DNA from: Tieghemostelium lacteum
Taxonomy: Eukaryota > Evosea > Eumycetozoa > Dictyosteliales > Raperosteliaceae
DNA: 64,000 nucleotides
Assembly (NCBI GenBank): GCA_001606155.1
Contig: LODT01000037.1
Location: 310,001 to 374,000, forward strand
Direction of reading: 5' to 3'
The notes under the pieces were generated by a model. It made no database searches. It was not told the origin of the DNA and was given only the letters and a program-made list of their open reading frames with translations. Positions 2,227 to 58,100 of the stretch are shown in pieces. A program made the position numbers and the translations under genes. Every line of letters starts with the position of its first letter. Positions within the stretch are counted from its first letter, which is position 1.

Positions 2227-2885
2227 ATGAAAACTATATCTGTAATATTTGTTTTATTATTAGTTTCTATTGCATGTTGTGAAGGACGTGTAAAGAAATA
2301 TAAATGGTTAGAAATGGAACCTTCAATAGTATACAAAGGCAGTGATTTGGATGCTAGTGAATTAGAATTCCATGAAAATAAAATGCAAGAAATTATTGAT
2401 CATGCATATTCAAAGGGTTCAGTCTTTGCTTCATCTATTGTTAATGCTACAACTGGTGAGACTATATGTATAAGTACCAATGCAGTAGGTCAAAAGAAAG
2501 ATATGACTCAACATGGTGAAATGGTAGTTATGATGAACTGTTCTTCAATTTACGGTTTATTTAACTGGACTGGATTCTACTTATACACCACTGGTGAATC
2601 ATGTCCAATGTGTCAATCAGCTGCCATGTGGAATAGATTCTCTAAAATCATTTATGGATCCTCAATTAAATTCCTCTATTGTAACCATTGCCAAGCTCAA
2701 ATTCTAATTGAATCTCAAGTCATTAATTCAATGGGTTATGGTTTAAGTGATGACGGTACATATGTTCCAGCCCAAATCATTGGAGGTATCTTAGAAGATC
2801 AAACCAATGTTCTCTTTAAAAACTATTGTATTCCACCTAATGACACTAGTTCTCAAGCAGTTCATCCAGCTTGTATTGAAGAAGA

Positions 2886-2928
<43 letters not shown>

Positions 2929-2994
2929 ACTACTTCATCATCAGTTGAACAATCATCTGAAAATACCTCTTCCACTTCATCCACATCTCCATAG
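2227..2994 (+). CDS. Secreted zinc deaminase-like protein, paralogue 1 (poly-Ser tail)
   Basis: A 255-residue protein with a hydrophobic signal peptide (about residues 1-19) and a CDA/guanine-deaminase-type fold. His96 and Glu98 (HGE) with Cys126 and Cys129 (SCPMC) match the zinc ligands and the proton-shuttling Glu of the family, which normally reads HAE...PCxxC. Spacing and the MW after the Cys pair look most like guanine deaminase or tRNA-type deaminases. NxS/T sites and extra Cys (YCNHC, NYC, PAC) suit an exported, disulphide-bonded protein. The tail is acidic, then a Ser-rich run. It is the most divergent of four tandem copies and uses less biased codons. Substrate (free base, nucleoside or nucleic acid) cannot be told from sequence. 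Confidence 0.85.
2887..2928 (+). repeat. (TCA)14 microsatellite coding poly-Ser
   Basis: Fourteen uninterrupted TCA triplets code a Ser run in the tail of deaminase paralogue 1; the other three copies lack it. Another frame reads it as poly-His, which is only a shadow. Confidence 0.95.
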
Positions 2995-3013
2995 GGAATT
3001 TATATTTAATTAA

Positions 3014-3795
3014 ATTTCTCTGTCAAACCTAAAATTATTTGGAATTTATCTTTCAAATTACAAATTGTAAATGAAATAAATATTCTTATTTATTAAGATA
3101 ATAAATATTATATTTTATATACAAAAACGTTGATCAGGTTGAATTTTTATGAGTAAATATCCACAAAAGTATGAATATTTATTTAAATTTCGTTTACCTG
3201 AGTTTTAATCTTTTAAATATTTATTCTCTGAAATGGTTTATTATTGGGATATATAGAACATATGCCCACAGCATGGGTGATAAATCTTTTTTTTTTGATT
3301 GTAGCTTATTGCTTTATTTTTAAAATTTTTTGATTGGTTAAAGTTTTTTTGGTTTTTTTTTTATTTTGATGAGTTTCTGATGCAACTAAACGGCTTTATA
3401 CTATTACCTTAAAAAAAGGACCTTTATTTAAATTACTTTAGATGTCGTAAAAAGTTTAGATTTAACCTTTAGATTTGATTCTCAATAACAACGAAAATAA
3501 TGACACCAATCAAACAATTGACTTTCATAACTGCCACCAAAAGTCATAACAATGATTACTCGAGAACTTTACAATATTTTGATTGGATGTAACATTTTAC
3601 AATGACATGAGACAACAAGAAATTTTGTGTAGACATGTTTGAAAGAATGAGGAAAATTGACAATATAAAAGCTCTGAAACTTTTTGAATTCATTTCATTC
3701 AATCAACAAATTCAATATTATCTACTTTTTACTTGTACCATTACAACAACTTTATATATCTCTCTCTCTTCTCTCATTGTAACAATAACATTTTA
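3014..3795. other. Spacer between deaminase genes 1 and 2
   Basis: A/T-rich, with no convincing gene. The last 130 bases hold a T-rich promoter stretch and leader of copy 2. Confidence 0.6.
3733..3744 (+). promoter_or_regulatory. Shared TTGTAC-ATTA leader motif, copy 2
   Basis: TTGTACCATTAC stands 63 bases before the ATG at 3796; compare the sites at 2141, 5082 and 6744. Confidence 0.3.
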
Positions 3796-4470
3796 ATGAA
3801 ATCAGCTACTGTATTGTTTTTATTATTAGCCACTGTTGCTTTTGCCTCTGCTGCTAAAGACTATAAGGCACCATGGGTTGAAATTGACCCATCAAGAGTC
3901 TACAGACCAAAAGATCTCAGACAATCTGAAAGACTTTTCCATGAAGCTAAAATGCAAGAAATTGTCAATCATGCCATTGCTAAAGGATCAGTCTTTGCTT
4001 CCTCTGTTGTTAATGCCACTTCTGGTGAGACCATCTGTATCAATACCAATGCTGTCGGTCAAAAGAAAGATATGACCCAACACGGTGAAATGGTAGTCAT
4101 GATGAACTGTTCTTCTATCTATGGTCTCTTCGACTGGACTGGATTCTACTTATACACCACTGGTGAATCATGTCCAATGTGTCAATCAGCTGCCATGTGG
4201 AATAGATTCTCTAAAATCATCTTTGGTTCATCCATCAAATTCCTCTACTGTAACCATTGCCAAGCTCAAATCTTAATTGAATCTCAAGTCATTAACGCAA
4301 TGGGTTATGGATTAAATGACTTTGGTGAATACACCCCAGCTCAAATCATTGGAGGTATTTTAGAAGAAAACACCAACTCCTTATTTGTCAACTACTGTAA
4401 CCCAGGTCCAAACGATACCAACTCACAATCAGCTCAACCAGCTTGTTTAACTGATTCCGACGACGAATAA
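3796..4470 (+). CDS. Secreted zinc deaminase-like protein, paralogue 2
   Basis: 224 residues from the ATG at 3796, which puts a clean signal peptide (MKSATVLFLLLATVAFASAA) at the N-terminus; the longer frame upstream has no ATG. The core is nearly identical to copies 3 and 4: HGE at 96-98, SCPMC with Cys126/Cys129, and an acidic DSDDE-type tail. Like copy 1 it reads MVVMMN after HGE, whereas copies 3 and 4 read IVVMQN. Codon use is strongly biased to the C-ending dictyostelid codons (ATC, GTC, ACC), suggesting high expression. Predicted secreted or lumenal; deamination of an extracellular purine or pyrimidine is inferred from the fold only. Confidence 0.87.
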   Translation: MKSATVLFLLLATVAFASAAKDYKAPWVEIDPSRVYRPKDLRQSERLFHEAKMQEIVNHAIAKGSVFASSVVNATSGETICINTNAVGQKKDMTQHGEMVVMMNCSSIYGLFDWTGFYLYTTGESCPMCQSAAMWNRFSKIIFGSSIKFLYCNHCQAQILIESQVINAMGYGLNDFGEYTPAQIIGGILEENTNSLFVNYCNPGPNDTNSQSAQPACLTDSDDE

Positions 4471-5207
4471 ACAATTCACTAATACACTCTAATTAATACC
4501 CAATAAATTAAATTTACATCGACCCTTGTATTATAATAATTCAAAATATTTAATTTTTTTATTTTATAAATAATCATATTTTATTATAATTTAAAACATT
4601 GATCTTATAATATAAATATAGTAATCTATATCTAATGTTATAGTGTATTTGTATCAAAGAAATTAGATAATAATTTCCCAGGTATTTTTCTAACTCTCAT
4701 AAATTTCAAACTTTCTAACAACCCACAGAATCATAACGGATGAAATTCAAATAAAAATAAAAATTGACCAATCAAACAAAAAAAAAAAACTTTTAGTCAG
4801 CCTATTTCTATTTTTACTTTTTTCTATCTTTTTCGTTTAGATTTAAAAGTTCTATGGGATATTAGTAAAAAAGTTTTTACAGCAAATCGATATGAATTGA
4901 TCGATATTCCCAATCAATAACCGGTACACAAATAATCTAAGAATTCAAGGTATAGGAGACGAGTAAACCTCCCGTCACAATTGAATATCAAGAATTTTAT
5001 TTGAATCTGATCTTAGACTTAATGTATTTAATAACCTAAAGTTTTATTTTTTTTTTCAATTCATTCAACAAACTAAATTAATTGTACCATTACTCAATAA
5101 TTAATTAACTGTATCATTATCACTACTTTTTTTATATTTTTAAATACCTCCCCTCCTATTATTATTATTCTCAATTCCTGAAATTATAATTAAATTCTAA
5201 AAGTAAT
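4471..5207. other. Spacer between deaminase genes 2 and 3
   Basis: A/T-rich. A slightly less A/T-rich patch around 4,920-5,000 has no open frame I can support. T-rich promoter follows. Confidence 0.6.
5082..5093 (+). promoter_or_regulatory. Shared TTGTAC-ATTA leader motif, copy 3
   Basis: TTGTACCATTAC lies 126 bases before the ATG at 5208. The following bases (CAATAATTAATTAACTGTATCA) resemble the matching stretch before copy 4, so the upstream region was duplicated with the gene. Confidence 0.35.
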
Positions 5208-5882
5208 ATGAAATCAACTGCTATCTTATTATTATTAGTTGCATTTGTAACTTTATCTGCTGCTGCCAAAGACTATAAGGCACCATGGGTCGAAATTGAT
5301 CCATCAAGAGTCTACAGACCAAAAGACCTCAGACAATCTGAAAGACTTTTCCATGAAGCTAAAATGAAAGAAATCATTGACCATGCCGTCTCTAAAGGTT
5401 CAGTCTTTGCCTCCTCCGTTGTCAATGCCACCTCTGGTCAAACTATCTGTATCAATACCAATGCTGTCGGTCAAAAGAAAGATATGACCCAACACGGTGA
5501 AATCGTCGTCATGCAAAACTGTTCATCTATCTATGGTCTCTTCGACTGGACTGGTTTCTACTTATACACCACTGGTGAATCATGTCCAATGTGTCAATCA
5601 GCTGCCATGTGGAACAGATACTCTAAAATCATCTTTGGTTCATCCATCAAATTCCTCTACTGTAACCATTGCCAATCTCAAATCTTAATTGAATCTCAAG
5701 TCATTAACGCAATGGGTTATGGATTAAACGATTTTGGTGAATACGTCCCAGCTCAAATCATTGGAGGTATCTTAGAAGAAAACACCAACTCCCTCTTCAA
5801 AAACTACTGTAACCCAGGTCCAAACGATACCAACTCACAATCTGCTCAACCAGCTTGTTTAACTGATTCTGATGATGAGTAA
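5208..5882 (+). CDS. Secreted zinc deaminase-like protein, paralogue 3
   Basis: 224 residues with signal peptide (about 1-20), mature start near KDYKAPW, zinc motif HGE (96-98) and SCPMC (Cys126/129), and an acidic C-terminus. It shares IVVMQN and WNRYSK with copy 4, so copies 3 and 4 are the closest pair. All copies keep the YCNHC pair and NYC Cys, likely structural disulphides. Intact, intronless, with strong codon bias. The absence of variation around the active site over four copies argues that catalysis is maintained; the physiological substrate is unknown. Confidence 0.87.
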   Translation: MKSTAILLLLVAFVTLSAAAKDYKAPWVEIDPSRVYRPKDLRQSERLFHEAKMKEIIDHAVSKGSVFASSVVNATSGQTICINTNAVGQKKDMTQHGEIVVMQNCSSIYGLFDWTGFYLYTTGESCPMCQSAAMWNRYSKIIFGSSIKFLYCNHCQSQILIESQVINAMGYGLNDFGEYVPAQIIGGILEENTNSLFKNYCNPGPNDTNSQSAQPACLTDSDDE

Positions 5883-6849
5883 ACAAATAGATTGTCATTA
5901 ATACTTACATATTATTTGAAATACCTATAAAATAAAACATTATTTTATATCTGTTTTTTATTAATATAAAAAATATCTGATCATCTTCAATTTTTTTTTA
6001 TTTTTTTTTAAAAATTACGAAGTGAACAATACACTAGGTTCACACCACTAAACTCAACAATTTAGATTCTCAAAATTTTAAATTTAAAATATAATCAATT
6101 ATTTCAATTGTTTTATATTATTATTTTTTTTTATTTAAAATCTATTTGATTATTTATTTTTTTAATTTGTTGGATTTGATGGATCAGTTTCATTATTGTA
6201 AAATGTTTTGTGGAAAATGTAAAGGTAAAAACTAGTTGTAAATTAAATCAAATGATATATATCTTATTGATCCCCATTTTGTGATCGATAGAATATATAT
6301 ATTATAAACTATTGCTATGATTATCCTATCATAGAAAAAGTACCTCTCAAAATCTTGAGGGAAAACAAATCACAAGTCGAGGTCAATCAAATTTTCCACA
6401 CAGATATTTTTAATTTTCATTGTATGATTTTTTTTTTTTAAATTTTTACTAAACGAGAAAAGGCCTGTTTAACTAACCAATTGGATTCATTTGATTTGGT
6501 TAACCGTATCAAATCCATCACTCTTTGATTTATTTTTTATTTAAATAAATGAGGGATATAGGCTATTAAGTCCTTTTAAAGATTCTGTGACACCAATGAA
6601 AATTATTAATTTTATAAGAATGAGCATCATGATGATACGCGAAACGTTGATTAAATATTAAAGAATTTACTTTGAAATAATCTTTAAATAAATAGAAAAT
6701 TTTTTCTTTTATTTTTTATTCATACCAACAATCTTTCTATTAATTGTACTATTACTATAATCAATTAATTGTATTATCACATTTTACATTTATTTTTTTA
6801 AGATATTATTACATCATCAATATTTTTAAAAATAATTACTATACAAACT
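5883..6849. other. Spacer between deaminase genes 3 and 4
   Basis: Nearly 1 kb of A/T-rich DNA without a supportable gene; imperfect short repeats of TTTGAT type at about 6,170-6,190 and 6,485-6,530. The final 110 bases resemble the leader of copy 3. Confidence 0.6.
6744..6755 (+). promoter_or_regulatory. Shared TTGTAC-ATTA leader motif, copy 4
   Basis: TTGTACTATTAC stands 106 bases before the ATG at 6850 and is followed by CAATTAATTGTATTATCA, similar to the copy 3 leader. Confidence 0.35.
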
Positions 6850-7524
6850 ATGAAATCTGCAACTATTTTATTATTATTAGCTGCTTTTGTAGCATTTTCC
6901 GCAGCTTCAGAATACAAAGCACCATGGGTTGAATTCGATCCATCTAGAGTTTACAGACCACAAGACCTCAGACAATCTGAAAGACTTTTCCATGAAGCTA
7001 AAATGAAGGAAATTGTAGATCACGCCATCTCTAAAGGTTCAGTCTTTGCTTCCTCCGTCGTCAATGCCACCTCTGGTCAAACTATCTGTATCAATACCAA
7101 TGCTGTCGGTCAAAAGAAAGATATGACCCAACACGGTGAAATCGTCGTCATGCAAAACTGTTCTTCAATCTATGGTCTCTTCGACTGGACTGGTTTCTAT
7201 TTATACACCACTGGTGAATCATGTCCAATGTGTCAATCAGCTGCCATGTGGAACAGATACTCTAAAATCATTTTCGGTTCATCCATCAAATTCCTCTACT
7301 GTAACCATTGCCAAGCTCAAATCTTAATTGAATCTCAAGTCATTAACTCAATGGGTTATGGATTAAATGATTTTGGTGAATACGTCCCAGCTCAAATCAT
7401 TGGAGGTATCTTAGAAGAAAACACCAACTCCCTCTTCAAAAACTACTGTAACCCAGGTCCATACGATACCAACTCACAATCAGTCCACCCAGCTTGTTTA
7501 ACTGATTCTGAATCTGATGAATAA
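6850..7524 (+). CDS. Secreted zinc deaminase-like protein, paralogue 4
   Basis: 224 residues, signal peptide about 1-19, mature start SEYKAPW (one residue shorter than copies 2 and 3), HGE at 95-97 and SCPMC with Cys125/Cys128. The tail is DSESDE. Otherwise nearly identical to copy 3. It ends the array; the next gene (topoisomerase II) lies on the other strand with tail-to-tail orientation. Long identical stretches at DNA level among copies 2-4 point to recent duplication or gene conversion. Function as for the other copies: deaminase fold sure, substrate unknown. Confidence 0.87.
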   Translation: MKSATILLLLAAFVAFSAASEYKAPWVEFDPSRVYRPQDLRQSERLFHEAKMKEIVDHAISKGSVFASSVVNATSGQTICINTNAVGQKKDMTQHGEIVVMQNCSSIYGLFDWTGFYLYTTGESCPMCQSAAMWNRYSKIIFGSSIKFLYCNHCQAQILIESQVINSMGYGLNDFGEYVPAQIIGGILEENTNSLFKNYCNPGPYDTNSQSVHPACLTDSESDE

Positions 7525-7744: not shown

Positions 7745-10700
7745 TTAATCACTGAACATTTCATCATCAGATGAATCAAAGAAAGTGCTAGGTATATTGT
7801 TTAATGCAGCACCTCTAGTTCTCAATGATGGCAATACAATATTTTTTGGTGGAGGTGTATCAGACCCACTATCCTCATCTTCTGAAAATGATTCTTCTTT
7901 TTTGGTGAGTACCTTCTTTTTACCATTTGTAGTAGAGGCCTTTGCTGAAGGTTTTGATGGTTTTGGAATTACAGCTGGAATTGGTTTGGCAGCAGCAACT
8001 GTGGTTTTTGATTTTTTAGTAGTTGGTTTTTCAACATAATCTTCATCAGAATCAGAGCTTATGGTGGTAGAGGTAGTTGTGGAAGAAGTCTTGGGAGATA
8101 ATTTAGTGAAATAAGAATCAATTTTACTTGAAGCTGATGTAGATACAGCTGAAGATTTGGTTGATACAGTGGCTGCTGGTTTGGATGGTTTCTTCTCTTC
8201 AACTACAACCTCTTCTTCTATATCACTTTCTTCCTTCTTTCTCTTACCCAAAGTTGATTTTGAAGCAGCTTTGGAGGTGGATGAAGGTGGTTTAGCAACT
8301 TTACTTTTACGAATGGTTGTGATTTTTCTGGCTTTTGGTAGTTTTTTACCCTTGTGTTTTGATTTCAATTGATCAGTAAGATTCTTTTGATCGGTATCAT
8401 ATTCATCTTGTTTGTCTAGTTCTTCTTCAAGTACCTCGAGATCTCTAAGATAGATTTCTTTAATTGGAGTGGATTTGAGTTTATCCAATTCTTGTTTCTT
8501 GGTGTCTCTTTCTTCCATAATCTTTTTGACACGTTCCAATGTAAGAGACCACAGAGGGAGAGATAAGAGATAATCGTAACCTTTACTATCTTCATCTTGA
8601 TCAACTTCCATTTCATCTTCGTCTCTTTCTTCTTCGTTATCTGATTCAATTGCATCTTCTTCCTCAAAGTTTTTACCAGATTTTGCCTTTAACTTTTTTC
8701 TAGTAGATTGATTGGCATTCTTTAGAATCTTGTCGAATTTCATCTCTTTGAGTCTCTTAAGAATATCAACTTTCTTAACCTTATTGATTTCAATCTCCTT
8801 ATTGACAACAGCTAGAATAAATCTAGCTTTGTTAGAGAGTCTATTGTATTCTTCAAGTAATTTCTCACAGAGGAACTCCTTTCTCATATCATAGTGTTTC
8901 ATACGAATCTTTAAGAAATTGTCCATAATCTCCATAGTGGTATTATATTTAACGATATTATTCTCTTCATCAAAGACAACCATATTAGTTTCAGATCCTG
9001 TTGAAGTCAATTTGAATTCTTTAGGGATATTAATATTGTCTACAGGTTCAACAGTGGTAACGATAAAGTGGACAATAGCCTCTGAACTGTAATTTACATA
9101 TTTACTAATTACAGCAGCCTTTTCTTCATTGTCGTCTTTCTTCTTTTTAGAGGTTGCCTTGGTAGTCTTCTTAGCAGTGGTCTTCTTCAGTTTTGCTTTG
9201 GCCTGTTTTCTCTTTTCTTTTGTACCTGGATTCAAGAGTTCTTCAAGGTACTCCTTGTAGTCTTGTGTCCAGACGCCAACAGGTAACTCTGTAATCTCAA
9301 ATTGATATTCACTTAATTTCTTCCAGACACCATTGAAAACATATTGAGCATCACCTTTACCATTTTCAATAGTACCTGTGAAACCTCTGGTAAATGGAGT
9401 GAGTTTCTTCATTTCCTTACCATCTAGATGCAATTTGATATTCTTTATAATGTCTCTTGGATTATAGGAGAGGAATTTAGAGGACCAACCAGTACCAATA
9501 CCAGTTCCACCATTTACCAAAACCATTGGAATAATAGGTACATAGAATTTAGGTTCAACTTTAATACCATCATCAATGACAGTTTTAAGGATGTGGTCAT
9601 CATCAGGATGATAGATGGCTCTTGCAATACTCTGTAAACGAGTATGAATATATCTTGCAGATGAACAATCTTCACCACCTTCATAACGACTACCAAATGA
9701 ACCTGATGGATATAAAAGATTGATATTATTACTACCAACATAGTCCTGGGCCATACCAACAATAGCTTTGTTGAGTGACATCTCACCATGATGGTAAGCA
9801 CTCTGTTCAGAGACATACCCAATCAATTGAGCAACTCTAATCTCACTCTTCAAATTTCTCTTGAAACAAGAGAACAAAATCTTTCTCAACGAAGTCTTAA
9901 GACCATCAACCAAAGATGGAATACTTCTATCACAATCAGCAATAGAGAACAATACCAACTCCTTATTAATAAAATCAGAGTATTTCAAAGTTTTAGTACC
10001 ATATTGCTCTAAAAAGGTACCATCAACATGTTCAGCCATCCATTTCTTTCTGTCATCTGCTCTCTTCTTGTTGAATGCCTTATCAATATTCTCTTCAGCT
10101 TCAGAATCCCATTCAAAGTCAATCTTGTGTTTATCAATAGCAGCAAAGTATTCTTTACCTTCTTCAGGTTTACTAGTACCCAACCCCTTGTAATATTTAA
10201 TATGCCATCCTTTTCCTGGATTCTTTTCTTTCCATTCCAAAAACTCTGGTAGAGTATAGAATGACAATGTCTTTTGTCCCTTTTTAAAACATTTTACAAT
10301 TGGAGTAATAAACTCAACCAAAAATCCTGGTATCTGTAAAAGTGAAGGCCAAAAATGTTTAATCAAATTAATTAACAAACCTTTAATATGTGAACCATCA
10401 TGATCCTAAAATAGTTATATATATTAGTATATTTATATATAAATATTTTAAATAATAACTTACTTGATCAGTCATAATCATTAAATGTCCATAACGTAAA
10501 GTATCAACGGATGTATATTCTTTACCATATTGAAGACCCATAATTTCTACGATGGCAGTGATTTCTTCGTTGGCTACAACTTTGGAATTGGAGAGATCAG
10601 ATACATTTTCAATTTTACCTTTAAGTGGGAACGCACCATAGAGATCTCTTCCAACTACAGAAATACCAGCAGTGGCAATAGACTTTGCAGAGTCACCCTC

Positions 10701-12344
10701 TGTTAATATGAGTGTACAATCTGCTGATGATTTGGAGCCTGCCAAATTGGCATCATCCAATTTAGGGAAATAAGGTCTACCAGTCTTCTTTCCAGAGAAT
10801 TTCTTAATGAATTTGTTTTGGTCCATTAGCTTTACATAGTCAACAATGGAACTGACAATACCAGTTTTAGGATCACAAACTTTTTTTATAAATTTCTCGG
10901 AGGGTTCGCAAGTGGATCCTAATTTATCTTTTTTGGTGGTCAAGGACTCTTTGGTCTGACTGTCAAATTGAGGGTTGATAATCATACTTTTTACAAATAC
11001 AAATAGATAGTTTTTGATGGTTTGTGCTCTCAAATCTGCGGTTTTACTGGCTTTTTTAACCTTTTCAGAGATGGCTGAAATGATGTTTTGGAGTGCGTGT
11101 GTTACATGTGTACCACCTTTAGTTGTACATATAGAGTTTACAAAAGATACCTGATTGAATTGACCTTCAGTTGAGAGAGCTATAGCAATTTCCCAACGGT
11201 CACTAACCTTTTCATAGTGTACTTTAATTGGGTTTTCTTCGTCATTGTTATCTATATACAGTTCAATGTACTTCTCAAAAGAGGAGAAAGAAATGTTCTT
11301 GCCATTGTATGAGACTTTCAAACCTGCATTGGTACCTGCAATATCATAGACACGTTTCTCTAAAAGTGCCATTAAATCATCATCAAAATGTGTCATACCA
11401 AATCTCTTTAGTTCAGGGAAAAATGTGATGGTTGTGTAATTGGTGCTCTTACTGTAACTTGTAATTACAGGGTCCTCCTTTTGCTTCATATTCTTTGTAA
11501 ATGTTTGTTTGAACAGTTTTCCATTCTCTGAATCACCAACTTCTACAATGAACTTATTGGAGAAGATGTTTGCCAATTTGGCACCAAACCCATTACGACC
11601 TCCAGTCAAACGTTCTTCAGAGTCATCGTAGTTTGAACTAGTCAAAAGATTACCAAAAATCAATTCGGGGACGTATATCTTATGTTCCTTATGTTTGACA
11701 ACTGGAATACCATGACCATCATTCGATATAGTAACACTACCAGCAGTAGCATCAATATCAACTTTAATATACTTCATCACACATCCTTTAGCATCTTTTT
11801 GTTTGTTATCAGCAGCATTAACCAAAATCTCATCAAAAATCTTATAGATACCAGGAACAAAACTAATTTTTCTCTTTTCCATTTTGGAACCACCCCACAC
11901 CCACAATTCTTCATCTTGCATTTCTATGGATCCTATATAGGTATCTGGACGCAACAGAATCTGGTCAAGAAGTTCTTTCTTTTGATAGATTTCCTCTATG
12001 GTCTTACCAGATTTTACAGACTTTGCAATATTCTCAAAGACATTCTCTTCATTTGTTTTCTTCTTTGGAGGTGGTGAATCTTCATCATCTAAATCATCCA
12101 AATCATCCATTACCATATCTTCATCTTCACTATCTGCTTTCTTTTTACTAGCTGCTCTTTTTTTACTTCCAGGTGCACTTGGTTTCTTTGGTTCAGTGGC
12201 TTTCTTTGTCTTGGCAGCTGCCTTCTTTGTTGTAGCTGCGGGCTTTTTAGTGGTAGTGCTTGCCTTTGTTTTTTTAACTGGTGAATGATAATCATCTGAA
12301 GACCCTTCAGATTCATAGTCATCATAATCACTATCATCAGACAT
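7745..12344 (-). CDS. top2: DNA topoisomerase II (type IIA), two exons
   Basis: Exons 12344-10464 and 10405-7745 join over a 58-base GTAAGT..TTTTAG intron to give 1513 residues, the usual size for eukaryotic topoisomerase II. The enzyme passes one DNA duplex through another using ATP and works in the nucleus. Visible parts: Ser/Lys-rich N-terminus; GHKL ATPase with RPDTYIGS and GRNGFGAKLAN; TOPRIM with EGDSAKS and the metal-binding TDQDHDGSH, split exactly by the intron after Gln; breakage-reunion domain with catalytic Tyr in ARYIHTRL (about residue 879) and GTGWS; Lys/Glu/Ser-rich C-terminus, probably nuclear targeting and regulation. No organelle presequence is obvious, so this is the nuclear form. 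Confidence 0.96.
10406..10463 (-). other. Intron of topoisomerase II
   Basis: 58 bases, GTAAGT at the donor and TTTTAG at the acceptor; removing it restores the highly conserved TOPRIM motif TDQDHDGSHIKG without gap. Confidence 0.95.
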
Positions 12345-18716: not shown

Positions 18717-20791
18717 ATGAACTCTAAAATTATATTTGTATTATTACTATTACTTAATGTAAATTATAGTAAGTTAAACTATTCTAAGATTGTAATTAAA
18801 TAATATCCTAACCATTTTAAATATAAATAGTTTATTGTGTAAAATTATCAATTGTAAAATTAATAGGTGCTCAAAGTCATTTAATACCACAACCAAATGG
18901 ATTAAGTTGGACTCTAGTTGATACATCCAACAAGACAATTTCAAAATCGTTACATTTGACTGGAGGTAAATCAACATTACTTATATTTGAGTTTGGAAAA
19001 ACTGATTTAGTTAGTCCATCTGTACAGGCTTTTCAAGGTTCAACATCACTAGGAACCCAAAATTTACTTCCACCAAATCAATTGGCACCTACTGAATCGA
19101 ATGGCACTGCATTTTCAACTACCGCATATTCAGTTAATGCACCATTAAATTGGATAGTTCCTGGTGTAACATTAAAAGTATCCGCAAGTAATTACGAGAC
19201 TTCTGATGCCATTGCTTTGAATACTGGTTGTACAGCATCAACGAACATATTGATATTCCCATTGTATCTATTTGGAGCTAATTTTGAAAATTCTGCAAAT
19301 TTCTCAACTGCAACTTCAATTCCAGAAATTGCGTTAGATGAGCTTAAAAATAAATGGCCTGTAAGTGAAATTAATGCTCAACCACATCCAAGTGGTGGAA
19401 TAGTTTGGCCATCTATAATTTTACCACCTAATGGTACACATCCAGCATTCTTAGCAACAGCTTCAAATCAACAGAGAGATGGTTTTGAAATTATGGGTAT
19501 TCTTTTAGGTCTTCTTGGAAGAATTTATACAGTCTATGGTGACTCTAAATTAAACACTCAATTGTATGGTCCAATCAGTTGGAAGAACTCAAGTGGTATA
19601 GTTAAAGGTCCTGATGGTGGCTTAGGTACAGTTGGTGGAAGTTGTGGTGTTGGAGATTTAGCATTCGCACATTATATTATTCATGAGCTAGGTCATGCTT
19701 TTGGTATTTCTCATTCTATTGAATCTTATGATGAAGGTAGATACCCATACGTCAATGGGTCCCTACTTGGAAGTCAATGGGGATATGACACCAATAAGAA
19801 TCAACTTTTGTCAACAGTAATTCCAACTTCTGCAAGCCATTATGCAAGTTGTAAAAAAAATTCTGTATTGAATGCTCAAGATCAATGTGTAAAACAGTCA
19901 GTTATGGATGGTGGTGCTCGTGATAGAGCTTCTGGATACCGTTACGCAATGTTTGCTGATTATGAAGCCGCAATAATTCAAGCTTATTTTGAAGGTACTA
20001 CAACAAAGGATGCAACAACTGGTGTAAATTCATACAGTGGTGGTAAAGTATTTAGATCTCAAACATTTTCAAGTGGATATGCTCGTTGGGATAGTATTGA
20101 TAAAAAATTTGTTGAATATACCCCTACTACAACTGATAGAGGTCTCTATGGTATTAATGGTAATTTGCCAGTTCAAAAGAATGTTCCAGTATATACATTT
20201 ATAGCTTCAGTGTCTCTTGCTGGTACAAAAGGAGCATCAATTTTATACCCACCATTATATGCCCAAAATGGTGCACTAATTCAATATTTTGATCCAACTA
20301 GTGCCACTGATTTGGATTTGATTAAACAAAAGACTGGAGTGTATTATAAGTATTGTTATGCTGATGGTTGTGATTTTACCTATCGTATCACATATCAAGA
20401 TTCATCAGTTAGTCATGTAATTGTACAAGATGGACTTAGACCATGGCTCAGTATCAATGGTACCATTGATCCACAATACTATAATGCCACGGCATCAAAG
20501 AGTCAAAAGTCTTTTGTTGTAAATATTCCAGCTTCAAAATCAGTTTCAAGATTTGAAATTCTCTATACACCCAATGTCTATGTTGGTTTGAAAAATACCA
20601 CTGTAACTGTACTCATTGACTACGATTGCAAAGGTCAAGGTAAAGACATATCATGTTCTATTCATGTACCACCATCTTCCTCCGATAGCACTACCTCTGA
20701 ATCTGAATCTGATGATATTTCAATATCATCTAAAATTCATATAAATTTATATGTTATCTTATTATTGTTATTTATTAACTATTTTATTTAA
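18717..20791 (+). CDS. Secreted or surface metallopeptidase (HELGH zinc motif), two exons
   Basis: Exon 18717-18768 gives a signal peptide (MNSKIIFVLLLLLNVNYS). It joins over a 98-base GTAAGT..AATAG intron to 18867-20791 for 658 residues in frame; without that exon there is no ATG. HELGHAFGISH at about 290-300 is the long metzincin-type zinc motif (HExxHxxGxxH), with VMDGGARDRASGYRYAMFADYE downstream where a Met-turn would lie. The layout most resembles M66 (StcE-like) peptidases, which cleave glycoproteins; that assignment is tentative. Many NxS/T sites. A Ser/Asp-rich stalk and a hydrophobic C-terminus (YVILLLLFINYFI) suggest a GPI anchor or membrane tail. Confidence 0.85.
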
Positions 20792-48253: not shown

Positions 48254-51200
48254 ATGGAGAGAGCAAAAATATTAATTATATTGGTTATATTTGTGATTGG
48301 TTGTTGCTCGTTTGTTCAATCACAACTCACTATTATGGGTAATATGGGTACAGCAACTACACTCTATGGACAACCTACACTATGTTCTTTTAATAGATAC
48401 TATTCATTAAATACAGATAAGACCGTGACATCTGTAATTGCAAATTTATTAACTACACAAGGATCTCTTCAAATCACAGGTACATTTCAACGAAGTGGTA
48501 TCAATGGTGCAAATGGTAAAACTGAATTTGTATATTCATTTAACATGGCAAATGTACCAGTAGGTACAAGTCAGGTATCTTTGCTCTACATGTACTCAGA
48601 TACCACTACATTTACAATAAATCCTGAATTAGTGAAATGTCTCAGTATTCCAACTCCTACAATAAACAGTACTGCATCATCCATGATATTCACTGACCGA
48701 TATCAAATTGTGATTTTTATAAAACTGGAAAATAGAGTACCTGGACTTAATGTACCTCCATTGACAAGCAGTGATTTGACGTATACTGACAATCAATTTT
48801 CAATAGTACAGATAACCTATGTCCCAGCATCCCCAAAACCATATATTCAAATGATTTTGGATTTGACAGATGCTACACAACCATCTAGTGTAGCATATTT
48901 CCAATTCACACAAGGACCTGTATCATTTTCACTTCCACTCCCATGGAATTCAGATGTTGGTGCCATTACCAAAACATCTGGAAATACCTATATACAGTAT
49001 ACTGATGGTGTTGGTTTAGAATATTTCTTTGCTGCTGTACAAAAGACTAGTTCAGCATACTTACTAGTAATATACCATTCCTATAATACAGATGAAGTCG
49101 TACCTTCTATTAGAGCATTTGGAAACACTGATAACTATACCCTTTACACAGGAGGTCGTGTTAATGCAGTAGATGATGTCTATACTGCCAGAGGTATATC
49201 TACAGTTTCAGCTACTAATGTACCATTATCCCAATACTCTGCACCTATGTTACTAAACTATAATCCAATCGAATACCTTTCAACTACAGAGAACAACATT
49301 GTTATAAATCCAGAAAGTGTTGTATCACCAGATTCACTTACATTACAAGACTTTAGTGTTGAAACAATCAGTCCATTATCACATAAGTTACATGTACAAG
49401 CCAGTGATCCAGTTGGTATAAAGTTTATAATTATAAATTATAAATTAACACAATCTGTTTTGGTACTGAATCAGTTACATCTTGTATCAGGAACAGTTTA
49501 CAATGGTGCTTGGGAAATTCCATACACTGTAATAATGAAAAAGTCAGCAACTGATGGGCTTACGTCAGTAGTCCTTGTGAACCAAGATGGTGAACAACAG
49601 ACATTTGCAGTTGGTACAATGTATAGATTACAGAATTTTAGTACTTTAGATCAAATACCTGAAAGGTTACCCCCATTTAATGATTATATAGCTACTGATT
49701 TTAGATCTATATATTTCAATGTACAATCTGTTAATTTGTCATCTCAAGGTTCAAATGTAACTTTGACATTGTGTCCTAAAGTTGCTCCTGATCATAAGGA
49801 GCTATTTTTGACATTTTTAGGACCTGGTAAAAGCTATCCGATTTTCAATAGTGTTTGGGATACAGGTTTGATATGCTTTAAATTTACAATTTATCTACCT
49901 GCTAGAATGTTTTCTGGACCACTTTTATTCGCTTTGGCAAGAGTTGACCAACAACCACCTGTTGTTATTCAACAACTATCTTACACTCATTTTTATTATA
50001 ATTTTGTAGAGAATGCAACACTGCAGATCGATACAGCTGATGCATACCAATTAGGTCCACAAGTTATCTCATTTGGACCAGGTACAAATACTTATATAAT
50101 CAATGAAAACACATCATCTAATTTTACTGCCATCCAATTCCATTTCGTTATTGATAGTGAAGAAACTGGTATGGGATCTATATCATGGAGAATTTACTAT
50201 AACAATTCTACAACTGGTATCTATAAATCTATAACTACCAAAGTGGATGCCGATTCTAATTCTCTAGTAGACGAACTCTATAGTTTCAAAGTCTATAAAT
50301 CATGTAAGGGTATGACATTACGAGCTGTTATAGTTAGTATTACAGATAAGGAGGGATCTGTATTTTCAGGTACTGATACCTATATAGGTGTAAATAACCT
50401 TAATGCTGATAAATTGGTCACATGTGAATCAATATTAGACTTAACTCCACCTACTATAACACAATTCTCTGTGTCTAGTCAATATGTCAATACCAATGCT
50501 GCATTGGCAAGCAATAGACAAGTTTCAGTTATCTTTACTGTACATGACGATTTTTCAGGTGTAAATACTCAATTTGATCCTCCAGTTCTTACACTATCTG
50601 ATAGTTCCCAAATATACCCAGACTTCCAATCCAACAATTGCCAATTGACCAAAACCAATATATCAGATGCTCAGTACACTTGTGTAGTGCAATTTGGTTT
50701 AAATTATGGTTATCCAAACACATTTTTTATTTCACATATTTCTAATGTATTCGATAACCAAATGAATATTTTGGTTTACAATGGATCTCTAACCCAATTC
50801 GGGTTCCATGGAATATTAACCACTACTGTTATGTATTTGGACCCTGAAATTACATCTACTAGTAATATTACATCTTTAGGTGGACAACTCCAAATTAATG
50901 GAATTGGTATGGTTCCTCCATCAGATGTATATATTAAATACCAAGATAGTACTACATTTATATTGGTACCTACATCAGTTGATACTGATACAATGAAAGT
51001 TATTCAAGTCAAACAGACTCTATACCCTTTCAATATTAAAGTAGTAGTAGGTGGTTCTTTGTCATCTCCAGAGTTCACAGTAACACCTACTCTTGCACCC
51101 ACACCTCCTCCAGTATCCACTCTAGAACCTGTGAAATGTGTTGGATCACCTGAATGTGGTGGACCATCAAATGGTGTTTGTACAGCTACTGGTTGCCAAT

Positions 51201-52192
51201 GTTTTGGAAATTGGACTGGAAATGGATGTCTATCTAAGCCTATAGACATACCTCCTCCTCCACCTAACCCAACAACCCCAACTACAACCCTTGTAGATAC
51301 ATCCAATGCCATAATATCAATAATCTCCATTGAAGAAGTTGATACTCAAAATAACATTGTATTTAATCACACTTTCCCAGACTGGAATTTTGAGAATACC
51401 TCAGATTCTGAATATTTATCCTACAGATATACGACACAAGTTTCCAAAAGCACATCAAACCAAGTAATTTGTAACATAACAGTTGATATCAAATGGTATA
51501 CAAAAACAGAGAATATAACATTTGCCAATGAAATTATTACAATGAGTCCATCTACAATGAAATATACTATTGATATGACAGCATTCCCATTTGACAAAGG
51601 TACCAATACACTAAGACTAAAATTGGCTGCTTCCATTTCTGATTCAGCAGCAGATGACTCTTGTACAGCCAAAGAATTTGGAACATCTAGTCAAAACAAT
51701 GATATAAAATTTATGAAACTACAAGTAAATTCACAGAGTCTTTATGGAAGATTTATAGAAAGAGGTATATTAGATGGTAGAATTGCAATGGTCTCTAATA
51801 CTATACATGAAGATGAGGCTTCACAAACTAGTGATACAACATCAACGTATATATCCATTGCCATTCCACATTATTCAACTTTAGCTCAATTAGATCCTGT
51901 AAGTTTTTCCTTTTACTTTTAAATAGTAGACAATTTCAAAATACTAATTAAAATGCTTTAAATTTTATAGGATTTCTCATTACTTGTTGATGTTGATGAA
52001 GCATCTGATAAAGATACATCAATTTGTAAATCAACATCATCAGATTCAGGTTTATCTAAAAATAAGATTATAGCAATTGCAGTGACATGTTCAGTAGTAG
52101 GAGCAGCACTCTTGGTTACAACTTTTGTAATACTATTAAAGAAATCAACTATTTTAAAAATTAAACTTATCAAATTGAAAAGTTTTCTTTAA
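48254..52192 (+). CDS. EGF/TIG membrane protein of the ComC-like type, paralogue A
   Basis: Exons 48254-51898 and 51971-52192 join over a 72-base GTAAGT..TTATAG intron to 1288 residues. Signal peptide about 1-24 (ILVIFVIGCCSFVQS). A long beta-rich ectodomain with many NxS/T sites follows, then a TIG/IPT-like unit (about 865-945), an EGF-like module (CGGPSNGVCTATGCQC), a PPPPP linker, a 200-residue C-terminal ectodomain, and the membrane segment (IIAIAVTCSVVGAALLVTTF, in exon 2) with a short basic tail. Dictyostelids carry many such proteins; ComC and relatives act in cell-cell signalling and adhesion during development. The second exon reads LDPDFSLLVDVD, matching LDPDFSVLLDTK in paralogue B. 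Confidence 0.88.
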
Positions 52193-52991: not shown

Positions 52992-54542
52992 TTATGGTTT
53001 TGGTTGATAGGCCAAAATTTGATATTCAGAGAAATCAGCATTGTGCCATATATGGATTACTCCAACGCCTGATATTGATGTAGGATATTTTACAGTTTCA
53101 TTTTCTTTTCCCATTGTATAGTGGAGTACCCAAGCTTCTGATGCACCTTTTGCTTTCTTATATTCAGAACATCTATTAATGCTGTCTGAAACTTGAGTTA
53201 ATGCGGAATGGGCTACAATTTCTAATATACATTTTTTACCAACAAACTCTAGTAAAATATCAGCTCTATCTCTTTTTGTTGAACTAGTACTAACATTTGG
53301 AAAAATATTCATAAGAGGATCCCAAATCTTAATGAGGTTAACTAATTCAAAGTAATAAAAAGCTTCTGATGGAACTAAAGTGTCCTTTTTAGGTCCTGTA
53401 CCAAAACCTCTATAGTTCTTTGTTGAAACGTTTCCATTCAGTGTGAAAAATGGTGTGAGAGTTTCTACCATTTGAATGATATCAAATTCAGTATTTGTAC
53501 TCGAACGTATTTTGGGTGGAATGTTTCGATTGGATATTTTGCGTATATTGGCCAATATACAGAAATAAAGTAATTGTGATTGGATGACACATTGGGAGAT
53601 ATTAACTGATTCTGTGTCCATTTTTAATTTATAATTTAAAATACCAATTGATATCCAATATATATCTGCGTCATCTACAGTGATACCTGTGATCAAGGGT
53701 TCAGGAAAAGATCTGATATATGTCAATAATCTCTCTTTATATTGAAGAGAAGCAATTTCCAAATGAGACATCATCCATGCTACTGTAGAATACCACAATG
53801 CTCGTGGAATAAGAGAAGAGGTTACAACTTCTGACCAATCACTAAAGTATTTGTTATTACTTTTAATAACTTCATCAATTGCTCTACCACACAAATTTAC
53901 CAGTCCAGCATGCCCATTAGTCAGGTAAAATATACTTTCAACTATTTGAGGGTCTACTGTGCATTTATTGGTATCTTGGTAGATCATATATAGATTTTTA
54001 ACTTCCTCTAGGGTGAAATCATTTGCAGGAATTTGATCAATATTGTTAAAAGGAGAATATTTCCGATTTTGTTGTGTGTTAATGGAATCTCGCTGAATAG
54101 GGTATATTTGGTCTAAAAATAAGATATCAAATGACCCAATGGCAACTACAGACTTTAAATATGTGTCATATCTTTTCCAAGTTCTAAGCTGTCCAAGAAA
54201 GGATTTCTTTAGTTCTTCAGGTGCTGATAATATTCTATTAAATTTATCGATAAATAGAACAACTTTCTTCCCAAAAAAGAATTTTTTTGCTATATCATTT
54301 TGTTTATCAAACATACTAGACACATTGGTAGATGGAAATGTAGCGTTTGTATATCTATTAATATCATTTACGAAATGTCGCCAAAAACTTTCCATTGTAA
54401 AAAAATAACAGTCCAATGATATATAAACAGGGAGATAATTTTGTTTTTTGAGTTGCTCCATTAAACCCAAAACCATTGTTGTTTTTCCTGTAGAATTTGC
54501 TCCTTGAAATAAAACAAAATCTCCTCTGTTTATTTTAGCCAT
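52992..54542 (-). CDS. P-loop NTPase with possible nuclease-like C-terminus (Crinkler-type layout)
   Basis: 516 residues from the first in-frame ATG; the coding frame extends about 15 codons further upstream, so the true 5' end may lie in an unseen exon. Walker A GANSTGKTT lies near the N-terminus and Walker B is VVLFIDKFNRI, followed by helical AAA/STAND-like parts (LTNGHAGLVNLCGRAID). The last 120 residues (RADILLEFVGKKCILEIVAH...SEYKKAKGASEAWVLHY) have the D...ExA spacing of PD-(D/E)XK folds. NTPase plus such a tail is the published layout of Crinkler-type eukaryotic proteins. Which role this one has, defence, effector or housekeeping, cannot be told. Confidence 0.65.
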   Translation of the reverse strand: MAKINRGDFVLFQGANSTGKTTMVLGLMEQLKKQNYLPVYISLDCYFFTMESFWRHFVNDINRYTNATFPSTNVSSMFDKQNDIAKKFFFGKKVVLFIDKFNRILSAPEELKKSFLGQLRTWKRYDTYLKSVVAIGSFDILFLDQIYPIQRDSINTQQNRKYSPFNNIDQIPANDFTLEEVKNLYMIYQDTNKCTVDPQIVESIFYLTNGHAGLVNLCGRAIDEVIKSNNKYFSDWSEVVTSSLIPRALWYSTVAWMMSHLEIASLQYKERLLTYIRSFPEPLITGITVDDADIYWISIGILNYKLKMDTESVNISQCVIQSQLLYFCILANIRKISNRNIPPKIRSSTNTEFDIIQMVETLTPFFTLNGNVSTKNYRGFGTGPKKDTLVPSEAFYYFELVNLIKIWDPLMNIFPNVSTSSTKRDRADILLEFVGKKCILEIVAHSALTQVSDSINRCSEYKKAKGASEAWVLHYTMGKENETVKYPTSISGVGVIHIWHNADFSEYQILAYQPKP

Positions 54543-55134: not shown

Positions 55135-58100
55135 TTATTTAAATTCCTCCATTTTCTTTTGAAGTTTAATTTGAGTGTTTTTGTATTGTTTAGTTTTATA
55201 AATGTAATAGACTACAGAGATTGCTACTATTAAACCAAATCCAATACATCCTATGATAATACCTGCTAATTGAGCTTTTGTAAGACCCTTGTTTTTACTT
55301 TCTGAACACATGGAATTTGGTGAGGAATCAGAAGTTACAGGTTTAGTATCAAGAAGAACAGAGAAATCAGGGTCTAACAATGCATTGAATCTATAGTTTG
55401 GAATCTTAATTCCAATGAGATTACTAATAGATGTTGCAGTTTGTTCCTGAACAGTTGTAGTTGTACTATTATAGAATGTATTGGAAACAGATTGAACTCT
55501 GTTATCTATAATAGCTCTTTTTACAAATCTTGCATAAAGACTGTTTTCATTTAATTGCAATTTAACAAAATCAGTTCCATTGTCAATGAGAGAACCTTGT
55601 TCTTGACTGGTACATGATGATTGAATGTTATTAGATTCAAAAGTTGCAGTCATCATCAGTTCAAGACTGTTTAGATTCGATGTGAATTCATAATGGTTCA
55701 ATGAAATCTTGTATTTGATAGTTGATGGTTTCATATCAAGAACTTCATTGGCAAATACAATGGATTGCTCTTGAGTGAAATATTGAATATTCACAGTTAT
55801 GTTGGTGACTTTTCCATTGTTTGTAAGTCCACTAGTATATTGGAACTCTTGAATTGTGGATCTTGGTAATGAGAGATTTCTGAAATACCAAGTATCAAAT
55901 TTATGATCAGCAACAATAGTTCCATCAATTTTGATTTCTCTGAGTGATAGAATGTTGATTAAAGATCTCAATGTTGCAGTTTCACCATTTGGAAGAGGGA
56001 TTTCATTGTCAATTGTTGGATTAGTATTGTTGATTGTTGGAGTGATGATAACAACCTTTGAAAGACAATCAAAACCAGACCAACCTTCTGAACATTTACA
56101 ACCAAATGAGGTACATAAACCATTAGTTGGACCACCACATTGAGGTGTACCTGGACATATTGGTGTAACTACAGGTTGACCACTACCATTCCCATCAATA
56201 TAGTTATTAGAGGTGTGATTATTTAGAATTATAGTCACGTTTTTAATAACCTGATTAGGTACTGGTTTAATAACTAAGATTACATGTTCATAGAATGTTG
56301 CATTGTGGATAGATGTAGATGATTCATAGGTTACATTTACTTTTGGTACCTCGGGTGAATATCTTTCACTACCAAAATTGTGACCTATAATAGTTAACTC
56401 ACCATCTTCATCAATTGGTAGAACTGAAGTAATCACAGGTTGGGTTTGAGAAAATGTAGCATCAAAGTAATTGGTTAACCCAGCCTCTATTATATTATTT
56501 GGAGATGATCCACCAAAGTTTAGTGAACTATCAGTGTAACCATAAATACCAAGGTACACTTTCCCTTCTGGGTATCCAAATCCAAATGGAAGATCAAAGG
56601 CACATGAAAATGTAGCTGTTGAGTTTCCATCCGTTGCACTGACTAATGTGGACTTGGATTCAGTTTGTTTGAACATTCCAGCATAGAGATAACATGTTGG
56701 TGTTATATAAGTTATAACTTTACTGTTAGTATCAGTAATGTTAAATGTAATCTCCAAATGTCTATTAGAAGAACTGACATCAACAAATTCAGGACTGAAA
56801 GTTACAGAGACGATAGAAGGTGGTACTAAATCAGTACTTGGAATCACACCACAATCAGTACCAATAGTTCTATTGATTGGCAAATCAATGTTATCTAGAA
56901 TCTTCATGAAAGGGTCAACAAAAGGTTTCTTACCAAATTCTTGATAAATGTAAGTCAAGTTATTGTACACACTCTTAGCGCCACTATTATCAACAAGTTC
57001 TACATAGCTAATTCTGAATGACTGTGCTATACATTGTGGTGGAATTGTAATGTTAATTGAGAATACTGGGTTGATGGATAGTTGTTGACTTTCAGGTACA
57101 TAATCAAACACCAAAGGTACAAATGGATTCTTATCAGTTGTAATAAAAACTTTGGCATATTTAAGACCATTGTATTGCTCCTCAATGTAAAATGTCCAAT
57201 CTATTTGACCACCTGTTCCTTGTTCAATGGCACCACTTCTATCTAGCCTTGTAATCAAGGGTGGCATTCTATCAGCATACTGTGTTTTTATCTTCAATTG
57301 ACCGGAATCTGGCAAAAATGAGTGTAGATATTCCATTGAATTATAATAGATAACATATGGTACAACACCTGAGAATGCACGTGGTTCCAATACAAAATCA
57401 CCAGTATACATATTAAAATTCTTATTCCATCTTGCAAAGAATGATATATCTTTATCCAGTTTCAAAACTACCTTAACACTAAGAATTGGATTGGGTTGAG
57501 TGAAATTAATAAACATTATATTTTCACAATTAATTTCTGATAAATCACATTCTTCAACCAAAAATGCAACATAGTTAATTCTATTGGTATTTTGCTCATC
57601 TAATTAAGTGAGTTATTATTAGTATTAATATAAATGGGTCTATAATAGCAAAATATACATACATTCACTAGGTTCTGGAATATTAGGGAATTTGAATGGA
57701 AGTATTTGGAATGGACTGACATTAATTTCATGATCAAATGTAAATATGAATCCTTGGTGATCCATTGGGTAGACATTAAAGAAGTATCCGTCTTGGTAGA
57801 TGTCAGTATAGTCAAGATATTTTTGGAAAATACCATTTTTAATATCACCTTCAACAAGGTCATGAGGAAGTAGGGATATTTCTGATTCTTGGTTACCCAG
57901 AATAAATATTTTTAGAATACCAGATCCACTAGCAGCTTGGGCTCTTATTAACATGGTACAGCCCTTTAGTGGAATGAATTCAACTAGACCAGTTAGAGTG
58001 GTACCTGAAATGTCATCTATAGAACCAGTTTCTTGATTGAAAATAATATTCTCAGAATCCAATGCCAATACAGTTGTAGAAAAATATTCTGAGACATATA

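Follow-up and report, generated by a model that had tools for sequence, protein, structure and literature searches.

A tandem array of four genes for putatively secreted cytidine-deaminase-fold proteins in Tieghemostelium lacteum, and a tentative link to the folate deaminase of dictyostelids

The stretch of DNA analysed here stems from the dictyostelid Tieghemostelium lacteum (assembly GCA_001606155.1, contig LODT01000037.1, positions 310,001 to 374,000 of the forward strand; this whole stretch of 64,000 nucleotides is termed the window) and carries a row of four genes for probable secreted zinc deaminases of the cytidine deaminase (CDA) fold. The genes are arranged head to tail on the plus strand as intronless open reading frames (ORFs) that run uninterrupted from methionine to stop (stop codons are included in the coordinates). 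Copy 1 (2227..2994) encodes 255 amino acids and is the divergent member, with a serine-rich C-terminal tail; copies 2 (3796..4470), 3 (5208..5882) and 4 (6850..7524) encode 224 amino acids each, and copy 3 is used as the reference for residue numbering and for the structure model. The four intact paralogues in a row that had been described in a sequence-only reading of this stretch are thus borne out, and tblastn searches with copies 1 and 3 against the whole window led to these four places and to no other at E ≤ 1. The long Ser/Thr tail (2880-2991) is found in copy 1 alone, its DNA is partly a TCA repeat, and it is possible that it constitutes an O-glycosylated linker.

Protein identity to copy 3 amounts to 71% for copy 1, 90% for copy 2 and 91% for copy 4, and the mature parts of copies 2 to 4 are 91-94% identical pairwise at the nucleotide level, such that the earlier designation as nearly identical fits these three copies but not copy 1. 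Synonymous divergence (dS, NG86 method) is 0.19 between copies 3 and 4, 0.24 between copies 2 and 3, 0.31 between copies 2 and 4 and 0.75-0.99 between copy 1 and each of the others. The ratio of nonsynonymous to synonymous divergence (dN/dS) lies at 0.14-0.22 in all six pairs, and all pairs are under purifying selection. The layers of identity, the dS series and the dN/dS ratios together point at a layered tandem duplication that has been kept by purifying selection. When the intergenic regions of the copies were compared, the sole strong stretch resided upstream of copies 3 and 4, where 5038..5143 (plus strand) is 76% identical to 6697-6801 (E = 3e-13, in AT-rich DNA and with the low-complexity filter off). 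This similarity over about 105 bases is likely a remnant of the latest duplication.

The highly biased codons that had been noted for copies 2 to 4 are confirmed. The C-ending share of eight NNY codon pairs is 0.56 in copy 2, 0.63 in copy 3 and 0.62 in copy 4, compared with 0.27 (1036/3892) for a set of 16 further ORFs from the window, the highest single ORF reaching 0.44 (Fisher p 1.6e-8 to 1.9e-12 for copies 2 to 4 against these ORFs). Copy 1 has a share of 0.27 (p = 0.90) and is unbiased. The effective number of codons, which is noisier for short genes, is 30.5-32.4 for copies 2 to 4, 39.0 for copy 1 and 34.6-44.1 for the other ORFs. In dictyostelids C-ending codons accompany high expression, and the bias suggests that copies 2 to 4 are highly expressed.

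Judged by eye, all four N-termini resemble a signal peptide, with lysine as second residue, a hydrophobic stretch and a cleavage site of small residues. In copy 3 the signal-like part comprises residues 1-20 (5208..5267, plus strand, from the translation), a helix spans residues 2-21 in the structure model, and cleavage is placed between LSAAA and KDYK. The claim that the signal peptide is kept in all four copies is thereby supported as far as a likely secretion signal is concerned. Predicted masses of the mature proteins are 22.7-25.7 kDa, so that a dimer would weigh 45-51 kDa. Each mature protein has eight cysteines, two of which are zinc ligands by motif and the remaining six of which could form disulfides, and two to five N-glycosylation sequons are present per protein.

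All four proteins score above the Pfam gathering threshold for the CDA family PF00383 (E 3e-10 to 1.8e-9) and for MafB19-deam (E 2.6e-8 to 1.2e-7), PF00383 being the better match in each case, and no further Pfam domain exceeds the cut-off. A deaminase match was thus obtained by profile search for every copy, and the zinc motif on which the sequence-only reading had been built proved intact, H96-G-E98 and S-C126-P-M-C129 being invariant in the four copies. In copy 3, H96-G97-E98 (5493..5501, plus strand) would supply the zinc histidine and the catalytic glutamate and aligns with H53/E55 of GuaD, the guanine deaminase of Bacillus subtilis; C126-P-M-C129 (5583..5594, plus strand) would supply the two zinc cysteines and aligns with C83/C86. 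No variation occurs at H96, E98, C126 or C129 across the 62 rows of an alignment with bacterial relatives (A3, comprising 58 of 78 length-eligible loci, hand-chosen); both cysteines belonged to the search pattern behind this alignment, and H96 and E98 lay outside it. Given the conserved site and what is known of the chemistry of the fold, the reaction can be deduced to be a hydrolytic deamination in which zinc-bound water displaces an amino group; the substrate does not follow from it.

An AlphaFold model of copy 3 calculated from the 62 rows (pLDDT 85.8, pTM 0.79) was compared with solved structures by Foldseek. TadA from B. subtilis ranked first (E = 1.3e-10) and the first two matches were both TadA, followed by NE0047 guanine deaminase (E = 8.7e-10) and, further down, Arabidopsis guanosine deaminase (E = 3.7e-9); PDB sequence matches were TadA, cytosine deaminase and GuaD. 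In a profile alignment, F67, N85, H96, E98, C126, C129 and W135 pair with F26, N42, H53, E55, C83, C86 and W92 of B. subtilis GuaD (1WKQ/1TIY; residue numbers counted on the 1TIY alignment). F67 and W135 thus follow GuaD and not TadA. With TadA the window proteins have the fold, the zinc motif and a GVLEEE-type C-terminus in common, but they differ from it by the aromatic pocket F67/W135 and the signal-like N-terminus, and they reach 24.0-26.3 bits with the TadA equivalog PRK10860.1 of NCBIfam, the cut-off of which is 150. Structure prediction upheld the deaminase fold, and the profile alignment indicates a pocket that differs from that of guanine deaminase. The place of GuaD Asp114, which we take to contact guanine, is occupied by Gln158 in all four copies (Q158-I159 of copy 3, 5679..5684, plus strand), and Asp is found there in all ten GuaD-side rows of A3.

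Relatives were sought in prokaryote, phage, plasmid and viral collections. The prokaryote collection (one genome per species, 84,980 species) was scanned with the single pattern TGE[SP]C[PS]MC, which gave at least 591 stretches. Relatives made up 571 of these, and the 80 best were retained for family analysis. Within these collections the closest relatives found are bacterial. In a tree of 93 rows, the window proteins reside on a branch of 48 rows (44 bacterial and the four window proteins; SH-aLRT 99) that includes 'nucleoside deaminases' from Obscuribacterales/Melainabacteria, Roseibium/Labrenzia, Polynucleobacter and Streptomyces. A twin-arginine-type signal, recognised by RR and a hydrophobic stretch in an N-terminal extension, is present at 37 of 43 loci on this branch, at 7/9 on the next branch, at 0/7 cyanobacterial loci and at 1/23 on the GuaD side. 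The rule applied is crude, since it misses L023, L034 and L028, which are signal-like by eye, and cannot mend wrong starts. Export is thus usual in the branch, as far as the bacteria show, and the notion that an exported member of the CDA fold is unusual does not hold within this subfamily. The N-termini of the matched ORFs L008-L047 show this twin-arginine-type branch. Methylocystis proteins on the next branch are also CDA-fold deaminases with twin-arginine-type signals, and four clostridial loci that the tree places with GuaD (L032, L052, L063 and L078) feature hydrophobic N-terminal extensions and perhaps represent a second exported group.

Profile scores agree with the tree. A hidden Markov model (HMM) of 42 bacterial members of the branch (L055 dropped) scores the window proteins at 119-122 bits, compared with 78-80 bits for an Acetobacter/Methylocystis HMM, 66-69 bits for a cyanobacterial one and 75-78 bits for one of the GuaD side (20 rows; L074, L076 and L089 dropped). 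These group HMMs separate what A3 mixes: as A3 includes ten GuaD-side rows, the GuaD score of a profile made from it is partly built in. The exported bacterial branch is marked by W114 (38/39 of its rows in A3), Q158 (31/39) and I159 (32/39), all of which are present in the four window proteins; position 114 is Leu in all 19 other rows. S125 occurs in 13/39 and C105 in 17/39 branch rows. The window proteins and the exported branch are alike in profile score and in having an export signal, with identities of 27-39% over the best segment. They differ in C155, which in the window proteins sits in a one-residue insertion missing from 39/39 exported-branch rows, and in the type of signal, the bacterial proteins having twin-arginine-type signals and the window proteins plain signal-like hydrophobic N-termini without RR. 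The amoeba proteins would be exported by a route other than that of the bacterial branch, which is what a eukaryotic secretory signal would entail. Among NCBIfam models run on A3 (E ≤ 1e-5), TadA was matched by 60/62 rows, anti-phage dCTP deaminase by 27 and RibD by 17; of these three, the window proteins gave a weak match to TadA alone, and no model specific for the exported bacterial branch was encountered. In the viral collections a first scan returned 29 stretches and no relative, and a second two contigs that the tree placed on the GuaD side; the 32 plasmid and nine phage records were all below 60% identity and none spanned 80% of the query.

Trees nest the window proteins within the bacterial branch, with an SH-aLRT of 90 in a 22-row set and support of 83/73 in a 21-row set, which rises to 96/93 with five Roseibium-type rows. 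An arrangement with the bacterial rows as one clade is not rejected by the approximately unbiased (AU) test (p = 0.15), and the tree program warns of long branches meeting where the window proteins are placed. Because of the long branches, the AU result and the restriction of the sampling to prokaryotes, phages, plasmids and viruses, we make no claim of a transfer from bacteria. The genes neighbouring the bacterial relatives are not conserved (40 loci inspected by eye, ten proteins checked in Pfam). A dUTPase-like gene resides directly upstream, at most 10 bases from the deaminase gene, in five of 12 Burkholderiales-type loci by eye (L035, L036, L041, L047 and L067; confirmed by Pfam in L036 only), an adjacency that we judge accidental because the deaminase is exported.

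Taken together, the window proteins are very probably secreted, active deaminases; we infer secretion, dimer formation, glycosylation and catalysis from motifs or from the model. They would be exported as zinc deaminases of the CDA fold that probably form dimers and carry N-glycans. H96, C126 and C129 would hold the zinc ion; E98 would pass protons on and activate the water bound to it, and this water would displace an exocyclic amino group from a free heterocycle, the ring of which would be stacked between F67, H96 and W135. Folate and pterins share with guanine the 2-amino-4-oxo group that is attacked by GuaD. The most likely substrate would be folate and related pterins from prey bacteria, whose 2-amino group would be removed, yielding deaminofolate from folate; in this way the attractant would be cleared and gradients would stay steep around feeding amoebae. 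Well short of conviction, we favor folate/pterin as main substrate, a candidate missing from the substrates listed in the sequence-only reading (nucleobases, nucleosides and nucleic acid of prey), and regard the genes as putatively encoding an extracellular folate deaminase.

The biochemistry of Dictyostelium provides the context for this proposal. Its folate deaminase is described as secreted and cell-surface-bound with a molecular weight of about 40,000 (PMC4794234), to be set beside 45-51 kDa for a putative dimer of the window proteins. A review of 2021 calls it 'identified biochemically', adds that it 'is yet to be cloned' and states that methotrexate is left unaffected (PMC8616412). The latter would fit an enzyme requiring the 4-oxo group. 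The activity is reported to be very abundant at high density, inactivating more than 20 nM folate per second (PMC5476428). A folate-raised production of the deaminase is cited in PMC5095226, the own data of which follow no such trend. The attractant of D. lacteum is given as a pterin (PMC3341216). Since the array encodes GuaD-like deaminases of a dictyostelid that are predicted to be secreted and are probably abundant, it lends itself as a candidate for the folate deaminase. No named dictyostelid folate deaminase gene was encountered in the literature searched, in which subscription papers were thinly covered, so that a paper naming one may exist. That the array represents the long-uncloned dictyostelid folate/pterin deaminase, i.e. 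an attractant-clearing, tandem-amplified enzyme of a CDA-fold type otherwise known from the exported bacterial branch, is conceivable, albeit less likely than not.

Several observations argue against folate as the substrate. Gln158 in place of Asp114, the TadA-like C-terminus (GGILEE...LF) and the absence of GuaD (1WKQ/1TIY) among the 50 Foldseek matches listed indicate that the pocket is not that of a guanine deaminase, and nothing about it is specific for pterins. No pterin or folate gene was recognised beside the bacterial relatives (40 loci by eye, ten proteins checked in Pfam). The monomer of 22.7-25.7 kDa does not obviously fit a molecular weight of about 40,000, and the same holds for the 35 kDa of a Dictyostelium discoideum protein treated below. 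Precedent also favors another fold, because the bacterial folate/pterin deaminases Arad3529 and Variovorax F1 PDA are, as we take it, amidohydrolases. They share the proposed reaction and have been grouped with hydrolases of cyclic amidines (PMC9513972). If the window family deaminates pterins too, its origin would be separate from theirs.

Nearly as likely as folate/pterin turnover is digestion, with a secreted or phagolysosomal deaminase acting on nucleobases and nucleosides of prey and either feeding purine/pyrimidine salvage or freeing ammonia. The nearest solved structures use guanine, guanosine, cytosine and tRNA adenosine, and a described protein of D. discoideum points in the same direction. 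DDB_G0292096 ('CDD') has, like the window proteins, a zinc region of the CDA type and is predicted to start with a signal peptide; it was found on secreted multilamellar bodies, which are described as lysosomal in origin and which cells produce and release when they feed on bacteria, and its function was given as unknown in 2016 (PMC4920372). This location also counts in favor of the folate proposal, and the protein is a further exported member of the superfamily. As described there, it was precipitated, like cysteine proteinase 7, by the H36 antibody, whose antigen is GlcNAc-1-phosphate, and a lysosomal, digestive role would fit this behavior as well, to the detriment of the folate proposal; a Western blot with H36 on the bodies themselves, however, is reported without a band (PMC4920372). 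The two are not the same kind of protein throughout: DDB_G0292096 is described with 35 kDa and an annotated carbohydrate-binding domain (PMC4920372), whereas the window proteins are smaller and give no carbohydrate-binding Pfam match at E ≤ 1. Neighbors that could serve in nitrogen scavenging are present in five of the 40 bacterial loci, namely an Asp/Glu/hydantoin racemase (L008, and L009 by eye), isochorismatase plus CN-hydrolase (L023), an NMT1/THI5 ABC transporter (L029) and a luciferase-like monooxygenase (L042), and a sixth locus (L075) has an amidohydrolase. Against digestion stand the lack of conservation of these neighborhoods, the replacement of Asp114 by Gln and the scores far below the TadA cut-off.

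A role outside the cell against prey or rivals, with a DNA/RNA deaminase or a stand-alone toxin-like deaminase attacking their nucleic acid or other macromolecules, appears improbable. MafB19-deam, presumably a toxin deaminase family, does exceed its cut-off and TadA heads the Foldseek matches, but PF00383 outscores MafB19-deam in every copy, no further Pfam domain was detected above cut-off, and members of the bacterial branch are short, at 156-253 amino acids with chosen starts, and have no neighbors in common. Least probable of all is a deaminase fold reused without catalysis, e.g. in an abundant secreted membrane-body glycoprotein that binds zinc or sugar, since the site residues are invariant in 62 rows and purifying selection prevails, even though DDB_G0292096, with its carbohydrate-binding annotation, is listed as one of four major proteins of the secreted bodies (PMC4920372).

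Some further features of the window deserve mention. A topoisomerase II-like gene follows the array on the minus strand (7745-12344); by eye it consists of two ORFs, with a short, AT-rich, intron-like gap near 10406-10469. Two ComC-like proteins are encoded at 48254-51922 (plus strand) and 55135-57516 (minus strand); they match ComC_SSD and DUF7949, the second also DUF7034/7035, all of which we take to be dictyostelid families, in support of a dictyostelid origin. The GC content of 30.6% speaks against D. discoideum and D. purpureum as the source. A protein with a Peptidase M66 domain (19493-20791, plus strand; Pfam E = 4e-47) belongs to metalloproteases better known from bacteria. The gene for an AAA_35 ATPase (52992-54542, minus strand; Pfam E = 2e-8), a mainly bacterial family, is possibly mobile or laterally acquired. 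Neither tRNA genes (bacterial settings) nor Rfam families were detected in the window.

The array is a real tandem family of a kind already known, the exported CDA-fold deaminases, and it points to an exported CDA-fold bacterial branch for which no branch-specific NCBIfam model was met. Chemotaxis is often studied on folate gradients that the cells generate themselves; the enzyme behind these gradients was, according to the review of 2021 (PMC8616412), still uncloned, and the four genes offer a short, testable list of candidates. If the folate/pterin assignment is true and the exported bacterial branch has the same activity, that branch would constitute a class of exported pterin deaminases that has had no name so far.

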